Source: an uncultured Mucilaginibacter sp. (GTDB lineage: Bacteria; Bacteroidota; Bacteroidia; Sphingobacteriales; Sphingobacteriaceae). Taken from it: a DNA stretch of 64,000 nt. Position 1 is the stretch's first letter; each line of letters begins with the position of its first letter. A model generated the notes under the pieces. That model saw nothing but the letters and a program-made list of their open reading frames with translations, was not told the origin of the DNA and ran no database searches. Shown piece by piece: positions 60,671 to 63,972 of the stretch. The DNA is taken from positions 248,001 to 312,000 of the forward strand of contig NZ_CAJYGQ010000005.1 in the NCBI RefSeq assembly GCF_913773635.1, given 5' to 3'. The position numbers were made by a program, and so were the translations under genes.

Positions 60671-63214
60671 ATGAAGATTTCGTATAACTGGCTTAAAGAG
60701 TTTATTTCAACTGATAAGTCGCCCGAAGATATATCACAAATACTTACCGGCGTAGGGCTGGAGGTAGAAAGCCTTGAAAAGGTGCAGGCCATTCCCGGTG
60801 GTTTGGAAGGTTTGGTTATTGGTTATGTTAAAGACGCTCAACAACATCCTAATGCTGATCGTTTGCGTATAACCAAAGTTGACGTTGGTGCCGAAAATGA
60901 TTTGCAAATTGTTTGTGGTGCACCCAATGTTGCTGCCGGTCAAAAAGTGGTTGTAGCTGTGGTTGGTTCAACCGTACACCCAACTACTGGCGAGCCTTTT
61001 AAAATAAAAGAATCAAAAATTCGCGGCGAACTATCGCAGGGTATGATTTGCGCGGAAGATGAAATTGGCTTAGGCCATGACCATGATGGTATTATGGTTT
61101 TGGATGCTGATGCACCTGTTGGAGCTTTTGCAAAAGATTTCTTTAAGCTTAATGACGATTACTTATTTGAAATTGGCCTTACACCAAACCGTGCCGATGC
61201 TGCTTCACACCTGGGCACAGCCCGCGACATTGCAGCGTTTTTGCGTATTGGTATAACCAAGCCTGATGTTTCGGCCTTTAAGGTTCAAAATAACGATTTA
61301 AACATACCTGTAACCATTGAAGCTCAAGCTGCATGCCCGCGGTATGCCAGTTTAACAATAACAGGCGTAAAGGTGCAAGAATCACCGCAGTGGTTAAAAG
61401 AGCGTTTGGCAGTTATTGGCGTACGCGCAATTAATAACATTGTTGATGTTACCAATTACGTGTTGCATGAGTTAGGCCAGCCCTTGCATGCGTTTGATGC
61501 TAATGCCATTACCGGTGGTAAAGTATTGGTTAAAACGTATGCCGAAGGTACGCCATTTGTAACGCTTGATGATGCTGAGCGCAAACTATCAGCAGATGAT
61601 TTGATGATAGGCAATGCCGAAGAACCAATGTGTATTGCAGGGGTATTTGGTGGAGCTAAATCGGGCGTAACAGAGGGCACAACGTCTGTTTTTCTTGAGA
61701 GCGCTTATTTCAACCCGGTTTCCGTACGTAAAACATCAAAACGCCATGGTTTAAAAACCGATGCCTCTTTCCGTTTTGAGCGTGGCGTTGATCCTGATAT
61801 AACGGTGTTTGCGCTTAAACGTGCTGCCTTATTAATTCAGGAGGTTGCAGGTGGTGTAATCTCATCAGAAATATCTGACATTTACCCGGCACCCGTTGAA
61901 CCGTTTAGCGTTGAGGTTACTTTTAAAAATATCGACAGGCTTATTGGTAAAGCAATAGGTAACGGTACCATTAAGGCAATTATACAAGCTTTAGATATTG
62001 TTATAACTAACGAAACTGCCGAAGGCTTATTCTTAAAAGTGCCGCCTTACCGTGTTGATGTAACCCGCGAAGTTGACGTCATTGAAGACATCTTACGTAT
62101 TTACGGTTATAACAATATCGAAATTCCTACACAAATACGTGCGTCGCTGAACACCAGTAACCGGCCAGAGCGCGACACCGTGCAAAATGCGCTGTCAGAT
62201 TTACTGTCCGCTAATGGATTTAACGAGATGCTGGCAAATTCATTAACCAGTTCATCGTATGCCCAAAGTTTGGATAACGCGGTTAAACTGCTTAATCCGC
62301 TGAGCAGCGATCTGGACATCATGCGTCAAACGCTGTTGTATTCAGGTTTGGAGGCTATTGCATACAATCAAAATCGTCGTCAGGCCGATTTAAAGCTTTA
62401 CGAATTTGGTAAAACCTACTTTTTTGAGGATGACAAATACGTTGAAACGCAACGTATGTCAGTTTTTATAACTGGTAGGACATCTGTAGAAAATTGGAAT
62501 GATCGCCCTAATTACTTCATTCCACTTTTTGAAAATGTTGGTAAGTTGGTAAAAGCAGTTGAAGAAAGTGAACATGCAAGTGAATTTGTTAAGTTCAAGC
62601 AACCAATCGTTAATGCGCGTAATAATGCTGTTAAGGAAGTTGATAGTATTAAAACAGGTACTTTTTACACCCTTAAAGCTATTGTTGATGGGTTACTGAG
62701 CCGGTTAAATATTACCGATTATACAACCGACGAAATACATGATCATGAATTTGCTTACGGTTTGCAATACAACTTTCGTGGTGGCAAAACGCTGGTAAAA
62801 TTTGGCTCAGTTTTACCTGGTGCTTTGAAAAAAGCCGGGGTAGAGAAAGAAGTGTTTTATGCCGACTTTAACTTTGATACGTTGCTGAGCATTGTTCGTA
62901 AGAATAAAATTGTAAACAAAGAAATTTCTAAGTTTCCGGCCGTACGGCGCGATTTATCTATGCTGGTTGATACCGCAGTTACATTTGGTCAGTTAAAGCA
63001 AATAGCGCACAAAACCGAGCGTAAGTTGCTTACTGAGGTTAGTGTATTTGATGTGTATCAGGGAGATAAGCTTCCGGCGGGTAAAAAATCATATGCGCTT
63101 AGCTTTGTTATACAAGACGAAGAAAAAACGCTTACCGACAAGGCTATTGATTCGATAATGCAAAAGCTTATTTACAACTTTGGAAAAGAGGCGGGAGCAG
63201 AAATAAGAAAGTAA
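60671..63214 (+). CDS. pheT: Phenylalanine--tRNA ligase beta subunit
   Basis: The 847-residue protein begins MKISYNWLKEFI, with the tRNA-binding EMAP/OB domain at about 40-155, the B3/B4 editing domain (about 210-400), B5 and the inactive catalytic-like module, and the C-terminal ferredoxin-like anticodon-binding domain (KFPAVRRDLSMLVD). It pairs with PheS, which is not in this window. It proofreads Tyr-tRNA(Phe). Length is slightly above the norm of about 800 for this phylum. Confidence 0.97.
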   Translation: MKISYNWLKEFISTDKSPEDISQILTGVGLEVESLEKVQAIPGGLEGLVIGYVKDAQQHPNADRLRITKVDVGAENDLQIVCGAPNVAAGQKVVVAVVGSTVHPTTGEPFKIKESKIRGELSQGMICAEDEIGLGHDHDGIMVLDADAPVGAFAKDFFKLNDDYLFEIGLTPNRADAASHLGTARDIAAFLRIGITKPDVSAFKVQNNDLNIPVTIEAQAACPRYASLTITGVKVQESPQWLKERLAVIGVRAINNIVDVTNYVLHELGQPLHAFDANAITGGKVLVKTYAEGTPFVTLDDAERKLSADDLMIGNAEEPMCIAGVFGGAKSGVTEGTTSVFLESAYFNPVSVRKTSKRHGLKTDASFRFERGVDPDITVFALKRAALLIQEVAGGVISSEISDIYPAPVEPFSVEVTFKNIDRLIGKAIGNGTIKAIIQALDIVITNETAEGLFLKVPPYRVDVTREVDVIEDILRIYGYNNIEIPTQIRASLNTSNRPERDTVQNALSDLLSANGFNEMLANSLTSSSYAQSLDNAVKLLNPLSSDLDIMRQTLLYSGLEAIAYNQNRRQADLKLYEFGKTYFFEDDKYVETQRMSVFITGRTSVENWNDRPNYFIPLFENVGKLVKAVEESEHASEFVKFKQPIVNARNNAVKEVDSIKTGTFYTLKAIVDGLLSRLNITDYTTDEIHDHEFAYGLQYNFRGGKTLVKFGSVLPGALKKAGVEKEVFYADFNFDTLLSIVRKNKIVNKEISKFPAVRRDLSMLVDTAVTFGQLKQIAHKTERKLLTEVSVFDVYQGDKLPAGKKSYALSFVIQDEEKTLTDKAIDSIMQKLIYNFGKEAGAEIRK

Positions 63215-63364: not shown

Positions 63365-63655
63365 ATGCCATCAGTAACCGATCAGCTGAGTATAGTAGTA
63401 GAGAAAACGGAGCGGCTTATAGCGCTTTGTGGTGCGTTGCAGGAAGAAAACGACTTGCTGAAGCTTGAAAACCAGTCGCTGAGCACAGCTTTAGATGTAA
63501 GTAAAAGTAAGAATAAAGAGCTTGAAGAGAAGCTTCGTGTATTGAAGCTGGCTAAGTCATTTTCAGAAACAAATGAAAAAAGCCTTGACATCAAGCAAAA
63601 AATTAACGAATTTGTGCGGGAAATTGATAAGTGTATCGTGTTGCTTAAAAAGTAA
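63365..63655 (+). CDS. Small coiled-coil protein, possible ZapB-like partner of ZapA
   Basis: This 96-residue protein is not recognised from a named family. It is almost wholly helical: heptad-like leucines run from about residue 18 to 65 (LIALCGALQEENDLLKLENQ, then LEEKLRVLKL), followed by a second Lys/Glu-rich helix. It lacks a signal peptide or membrane segment. It lies 23 bases upstream of zapA in the same direction, so the two are probably co-transcribed. Its size, composition and position recall ZapB, a coiled coil that binds ZapA in Gammaproteobacteria; that is inference. Confidence 0.75.
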   Translation: MPSVTDQLSIVVEKTERLIALCGALQEENDLLKLENQSLSTALDVSKSKNKELEEKLRVLKLAKSFSETNEKSLDIKQKINEFVREIDKCIVLLKK

Positions 63656-63678
63656 CATTGTAAAGTGAACAAGCTCAA

Positions 63679-63972
63679 ATGGGAGAAATCTCAATAAAAA
63701 TAAACATTGCTGATCGCGTATATCCGTTGAAAGTTGATACGGAAGAAGAGGAATTAATACGCCGGGCTGCCAAATTGGTTAACGACCGCATAAAGGAGTA
63801 TCAGGAGAACTATGCGGTAAAAGATAAGCAGGATTTGCTTTCAATGAGTGTTTTGCATTACGCAACCGCATCATTAAAAGCAGAGCGTAAAGTTACGGTT
63901 GAAGATACAACCGTGGCCGAAAAGGCTTACCAGTTAGACCATATGCTGACGGAGTTTTTTAAAAAGCAATAA
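63679..63972 (+). CDS. zapA: Cell division protein ZapA
   Basis: The 97-residue protein has the ZapA fold: MGEISIKINIADRVYPLKV, then EEELIRRAAKLVNDRIKEY and a C-terminal helix. ZapA tetramers bundle FtsZ filaments and stabilise the Z-ring. It follows the coiled-coil gene and ends 28 bases before the window end. It is about 17 kb from ftsZ, outside the dcw cluster. Confidence 0.9.
   Translation: MGEISIKINIADRVYPLKVDTEEEELIRRAAKLVNDRIKEYQENYAVKDKQDLLSMSVLHYATASLKAERKVTVEDTTVAEKAYQLDHMLTEFFKKQ

Follow-up and report, generated by a model that had tools for sequence, protein, structure and literature searches.

A small helical protein encoded directly upstream of zapA in Bacteroidota, a probable ZapB-type partner of ZapA

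We consider it rather likely that the product of a small gene, here called gene X, is the ZapB-type partner of the cell division protein ZapA in Bacteroidota. Gene X (63365..63655, + strand; an ATG start, 96 aa and a stop in the ORF list) was found in a 64-kb stretch of DNA (the window) from an uncultured Mucilaginibacter sp. and encodes a small helical protein, a ZapB-like candidate partner of ZapA. A spacer of 23 bases in the sequence (63656..63678, +) separates it from zapA (63679..63972, +; ORF of 97 aa), which encodes the FtsZ-binding cell division protein. The identity of ZapA is firm (PF05164, E-value 9.4e-18, score: 64.8 bits, cut-off: 23.8), and this score, the coordinates and the spacer all agree with the original prediction of a 96-residue ORF located 23 bases before zapA. 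The same prediction regarded X as a Z-ring partner, yet as an unrelated analogue that departs from the way in which ZapB-type proteins are encoded. The partnership stands as likely, since a coil-like gene that is conserved and linked to zapA is likely to encode a Z-ring partner. The remainder is not supported: X is tied to the ZapB family by its layout and by its profile similarity, and location away from zapA is characteristic of zapB in E. coli and not of the kind, as both the ZapB-ZapA and the zauP-zapA gene orders have been published (passages of PMC7641849 and PMC7858052).

X is a real coding sequence. Its same-genus relatives match at the N-terminus, the spacer between X and zapA is 20-24 bases long in all 29 genus copies where it was measurable, and the 19 same-genus copies of equal length reveal purifying selection (458 synonymous versus 180 non-synonymous single-base codon changes; per-site non-synonymous/synonymous ratio: 0.105). 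No Pfam or NCBIfam model is reached at its cut-off by the window protein. Upstream of X on the same strand, across a gap of 150 bases in the window, lies pheT (60671..63214, +; phenylalanyl-tRNA synthetase beta, an ORF named by its protein sequence and not by a family search), and past the window end lies rny (RNase Y; L002:3176-4738, +), likewise named by its protein sequence. On the opposite strand, an open frame of 98 codons (63382-63678, -) overlaps X; the part of it within X contains no stop in 13 out of 18 relatives, for which the codon use of X may be a sufficient explanation. The Rfam search at gathering thresholds reported only one tRNA in the whole window, and on an 11-kb extension past the window it reported nothing up to an E-value of 1, hence there is no 6S RNA context behind zapA in this genome. 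The ~200 bases between zapA and rny (L002:2974-3175), which gave no Rfam match, occupy the place where beta/gamma-proteobacteria carry 6S RNA.

A search with the single X sequence identified X in 50 of 60 relatives. Protein similarity to named loci points to Bacteroidia as the class concerned and to a place of the window near Sphingobacteriaceae. In order to avoid counting from X itself, the loci for the analysis of linkage were anchored on zapA. PF05164 is present in 182 of the 198 genomes of the class, and our class sample comprised 90 zapA loci with 63 family labels. The first X profile detected X on the same strand as zapA in 84 of them, while the iterated profile placed it directly upstream of zapA in 85; lack of conserved linkage, on which the original prediction could have foundered, is clearly not what was found. 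The class loci with no match include two at a contig edge (L040, L059), two in which a coil-like upstream ORF of 125 and 97 aa, respectively, is visible by eye (L103, L120), and one (L117, genome G112) in which zapA occurs without X, and X is found directly behind pheT on another contig (L150, L151). G112 is a natural case of unlinking of X and zapA, with both genes kept. The spacer ranges from -8 to 50 bases in 81 of the 84 class loci with a first-profile pair (start codons were chosen by a script). Among the 88 class loci that were judged, an upstream ORF attains a simple coil score in 83, and ORFs on the opposite strand attain it in 6. The conserved position upstream of zapA on the same strand corresponds to the gene order of the ZauP type, and from this order the two genes may be supposed to form one operon. 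A separate observation concerns the family f43 (G079, G118, G152, G183, G213; genomes 96-99% complete): zapA was not found at E-value <=0.001 in four of its five genomes, and the fifth one has a highly diverged zapA (E-value 2.3e-5), preceded by the coil-like ORF of L120.

For the analysis of the protein we used an alignment (A1) of the window X and 69 other proteins, from which we omitted copies with odd starts, long or divergent (L002, L030, L031, L068, L082, L083, L094, L095, L108, L109, L121), near-duplicates (L043, L044, L045, L048, L049, L055, L058, L061, L096) and the same-genus copies with the exception of L003 and L011. With this 70-row alignment, AlphaFold2 predicts X to be one helix encompassing residues 4-95 (mean pLDDT 89.3), in agreement with the all-helical character initially ascribed to it. 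Thus, X is predicted to be a small protein made essentially of one long helix, which is the shape of ZapB. A leucine heptad pattern had also been claimed, and it is present (L/I/V/M at 9 of the 14 a/d positions in the best 49-residue stretch), but not beyond chance, as 424 of 2000 shuffled versions of this protein reach that number. The pattern in the window protein being unexceptional, the significance of X comes from its conservation and linkage. Two parts can be distinguished in the protein: an N-terminal coil (residues 5-62; 63377..63550, +), delimited by the hhalign alignment with residues 5-62 of E. coli ZapB and by the AlphaFold2 helix, and a conserved C-terminal helix (residues 77-96, KQKINEFVREIDKCIVLLKK; 63593..63652, +), delimited by A1. 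D88 and C90 of the latter are at least 90% conserved among the 70 proteins, and its class consensus in A1 is KINELVREIDKCIALL; outside the class the corresponding place often reads like LKxKIxxLIxKIDxHL. The coil varies in length and the C-terminal helix is kept, even in the family f41, where the coil is stretched five-fold (540 aa in L082, 479 aa in L109) in front of the usual C-terminal end. Ends that stay constant around a middle that varies would be expected of a spacer or a tether.

Beyond the class, the A1 profile matches 150 of 296 genomes of the phylum (E-value <=0.001) and zapA is found in 293 of them, which indicates that the profile misses X in many genomes or that many lack it; some of the weaker whole-genome matches are unrelated long coils. 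Our outside-class sample consisted of 50 zapA loci with 37 family labels, the families f75 and f96 being left out because they had already been fetched through X. The iterated profile identified X upstream of zapA in 36 of these loci, and in nine of the 14 non-matches a coil-like upstream ORF is visible by eye (L177, L196, L197, L198, L199, L205, L215, L217, L219; in six of them the frame has ~220-460 aa). In L180, a coil of 291 aa that ends in a hydrophobic tail is encoded at a distance of 250 bases from zapA; we did not count it as X, and no coil-like ORF was seen upstream of zapA in L175, L201, L206 and L208. An ORF that attains the coil score lies upstream in 40 of the 50 loci, versus one of 50 on the opposite strand. 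The zapA frame of L201 (genome G482) is itself unusual: it has 206 aa with the ZapA part near the start, and seemingly a long C-terminal extension, and no X was found upstream of it. As to X-ZapA fusions, no zapA frame itself matches the X profile and none was seen in the examined parts of the 14 zapA frames of at least 135 aa.

Other phyla were scanned with an alignment of Bacteroidota RNase Y (A2) against named genomes; the best 80 loci were kept, which makes the sample lean towards Bacteroidota, and only the rny strand was searched. Among these best 80 loci, zapA occurs in 50, and the profile identified X directly upstream of it in 48; one of the two misses (L294, Neomarinimicrobiota) exhibits a 66-aa coil before zapA. 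No zapA was found beside rny in the remaining 30, many of them from Bacillota. The arrangement X-zapA-rny was found, among the best 80, in Zixibacteria (L264), candidate division WOR-3 (L280), Neomarinimicrobiota (L294) and a Deltaproteobacterium MAG (L242), and of these four non-Bacteroidota loci only L264 and L294 have pheT in front. A MAG titled Alphaproteobacteria (L288) has X-zapA-rny like that of the window's class, probably due to a wrong label or a foreign contig. Two further loci have X-profile matches downstream of rny near the locus end (0-based positions L276:8952-9228 in a Deltaproteobacterium MAG and L282:9090-9447 in Lucifera butyrica); neither contains zapA within the stretch searched, and zapA might follow beyond it. 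Altogether, in the few-kb stretches of the loci that hold zapA, the best 80 rny loci included, all 211 iterated-profile matches lie directly upstream of zapA and none elsewhere, with 42 of the 211 in loci fetched through X itself. Four further X-profile matches fall in loci with no zapA match, and whole genomes hold weak extra matches, one of them in the window's own genome (E-value 2.4e-4).

The company of rny and pheT raises the question of whether X serves RNase Y or the expression of the operon, with zapA being merely a neighbor in a cluster of translation and RNA genes. Such a role would be in line with the finding that in 84 of 90 class loci zapA is followed by rny on its own strand, and with the presence of pheT upstream, as a same-strand frame in 22 of 90 class loci, many of which have short flanks, and in 42 of 50 loci outside the class; rny was found in 38 of these 50. 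However, the pair X-zapA is kept in five class and eight other loci whose stretch shows no rny, and the protein distances of X follow those of ZapA (correlation 0.65) more closely than those of RNase Y (0.41). These values, as well as that for ZapA and RNase Y (0.43), were calculated for 75 loci with X shorter than 140 aa and an RNase Y frame of at least 250 aa. The correlation of X with ZapA given RNase Y equals 0.57 and was reached in none of 2000 permutations, with the reservation that lineage-wide rates and truncated RNase Y frames may contribute to it. We regard this correlation as no more than supportive of the tie between X and ZapA, and service to RNase Y as a very improbable role for X.

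The relationship of X to known families was sought with the A1 members among 24,736 Pfam families. PF06005 (ZapB) was matched by the largest number of them (35 of 70 at E-value <=0.1, best 5.9e-8), followed by YabA (24 of 70). The window protein itself scores 13.8 bits against PF06005, under the gathering cut-off of 31.5, and finds its best Pfam match in YabA (PF06156, 18.2 bits). It might therefore be asked whether X regulates replication initiation in the manner of YabA; yet the latter score is also under its cut-off (30), the match is confined to the coil (profile positions 13-65 of 103) and falls short of the full length, and X is linked to zapA, all of which make this explanation extremely unlikely. 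The cut-off of PF06005, on the other hand, is passed in single scans of 30 X proteins by three: L242 (39.0 bits) and L264 (36.5 bits), both linked to zapA and both from other phyla, and the class member L105 (33.5 bits, residues 7-85 aligned with profile positions 5-71 of 71); L153 from Bacteroidota remains just under it (29.5 bits). Hence, it is through intermediates, and not through the window protein by itself, that the relation to the ZapB family is established. TIGR02449, whose members we take to be possibly the "ZapB" of the beta/gamma-proteobacterial ZapB-ZapA-ssrS operons, matches seven of 70 X proteins at E-value <=0.1 (best 1e-4), with its cut-off of 55.4 bits far from reached (L192: 18.3 bits).

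The hhalign comparison of A1 with E. coli ZapB yielded 58 ungapped columns with a probability of 87.3, and the intermediates bring the tail of E. coli ZapB into alignment with the C-terminal helix of X. Because coils resemble one another, the long coil of RNase Y was used as a control. A ZapB profile was built from E. coli ZapB and four zapA-linked proteins from outside the Bacteroidota, repeating a seven-protein version that held two Bacteroidota proteins, and was run on 80 of the 84 class X proteins (frames longer than 160 aa were left out). The X proteins obtained a median score of 15.2 bits, with 63 of 80 reaching 10 bits, and 166 RNase Y coil fragments obtained a median of -0.2 bits, with only one reaching 10; the area under the curve for the separation is 0.984. 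At the level of sequence profiles, X is thus specifically related to those members of the ZapB family whose own genes adjoin zapA.

Could a true ZapA partner in the Z-ring have acquired a ZapB-like layout independently, by convergence of short coiled coils? Besides the low Pfam score of the window protein, such an origin would account for the pairwise BLASTP result (17.3 bits over 41 residues between X and E. coli ZapB) and for the PDB profile search, in which A1 is matched no less well by generic coils than by ZapB: E. coli ZapB (2jee) was found at E-value 3.2e-5, with designed coils and kinesin light chain ranked above it, for which reason we give this match little weight. Single-sequence PDB searches with X and with ZapA returned nothing useful. 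Against convergence speak the separation of X from the RNase Y coils by the ZapB profile and the extent of the match, which in the intermediates spans both the coil and the C-terminal helix, and we find independent origin unlikely, if the most serious of the alternatives. X is probably homologous to ZapB, as judged from the profile comparisons. Given the score of the window protein below the Pfam cut-off and the designed coils above ZapB in the PDB, we call X "ZapB-like, probably homologous" and do not file it as a member of the family.

The first of the known systems closest to X, E. coli ZapB (PF06005, NF011951, PDB 2jee), is described in parts of PMC4388696 and PMC7246612 as reaching FtsZ only via ZapA, forming a separate structure inside the ring and connecting to MatP on the terminus. 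Like X, it is a soluble helical protein (by prediction in the case of X) of similar size (81 versus 96 aa), with the layout of an N-terminal coil followed by a short C-terminal helix. The C-terminal motif of X is, however, longer and contains D88/C90, and in E. coli zapB is a lone gene flanked by glpF and rraA, a long way from zapA, whereas X adjoins its zapA. The second system is ZauP of Caulobacter crescentus, a coiled-coil protein that interacts with ZapA and is called a functional homologue of ZapB; according to the portions of PMC7188993 and PMC7858052 that deal with it, its oligomer works with ZapA and the DNA-binding ZapT, and the latter source places zauP and zapA in one operon. By description and gene order ZauP resembles X, being a coiled-coil protein encoded, like the coil-like X, upstream of zapA, but ZauP links to the MerR protein ZapT, and no such partner is known for X. 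A 2017 paper on ZauP reportedly noted the zauP-zapA operon in diverse Gram-negatives. Our search of a plasmid collection toward ZauP returned only gamma-proteobacterial zapA. Several of the plasmid records concerned (H1-H3, H6, H9-H11) that carry zapA are 4-5 megabases long and are apparently mis-filed chromosomes.

In beta/gamma-proteobacteria, operons of the form ZapB-ZapA-ssrS-(FAU1)-EVE have the ZapB gene immediately before zapA (section of PMC7641849). These have ssrS next, whereas behind the window zapA no 6S RNA was matched and the next gene is rny. ZapB and MatP are stated, in the passages concerned of PMC7188993 and PMC7858052, to be confined to enteric or enteric-related bacteria. 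In the largely open-licence literature that we searched, we found no description of X in Bacteroidota and no paper on ZapB in Bacteroidota. A ZapB-type gene beside zapA is already known in Proteobacteria; what X adds is its breadth and the missing anchor.

The anchor was sought with the MatP family (PF06303), which matched in none of 148 genomes of the phylum, the window's own genome included, and did match in the E. coli control. While E. coli ZapB links to MatP, X thus occurs in a phylum where a ZapB-type link of the Z-ring to MatP on the terminus was not found, and since MatP was not found, the link to the chromosome, if any, must use another protein. The Bacteroidota division ring probably has the same helper pair as that of E. 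coli, without the chromosome anchor of the latter. Beyond the linkage, the conservation, the predicted helix and the profile relation of X, its position, size and layout lead us to infer binding, oligomerization, localization and possible anchoring as follows. X would form a coiled-coil oligomer and would bind ZapA seated on FtsZ filaments, but would not itself bind FtsZ. It could then condense and space the Z-ring from the cytoplasmic side, as ZapB and ZauP do, with its C-terminal helix as the putative site at which ZapA, or else some additional factor, docks.

We also put forward, tentatively and with somewhat less than even confidence, an evolutionary scenario. ZapA and a ZapB-type coil would be an ancient operon pair that predates the split between Bacteroidota with their relatives and Proteobacteria, with X(zapB)-zapA as the original order. 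E. coli would be the exception, having unlinked the pair and added MatP, the Bacteroidia would have gained an almost invariant D/C helix to dock a further anchor to the chromosome or the envelope, and the ~500-residue coil of one family would be a longer spacer.

For a gene that is widely conserved, and of which the window copy reaches the cut-off of no Pfam or NCBIfam model, the analysis suggests a function. If X is of the ZapB type, the ZapA-ZapB module would be far older and wider, and the question of how Bacteroidota, with MatP matched in none of the 148 genomes, couple the Z-ring to their chromosome would become directly testable with one gene in hand.
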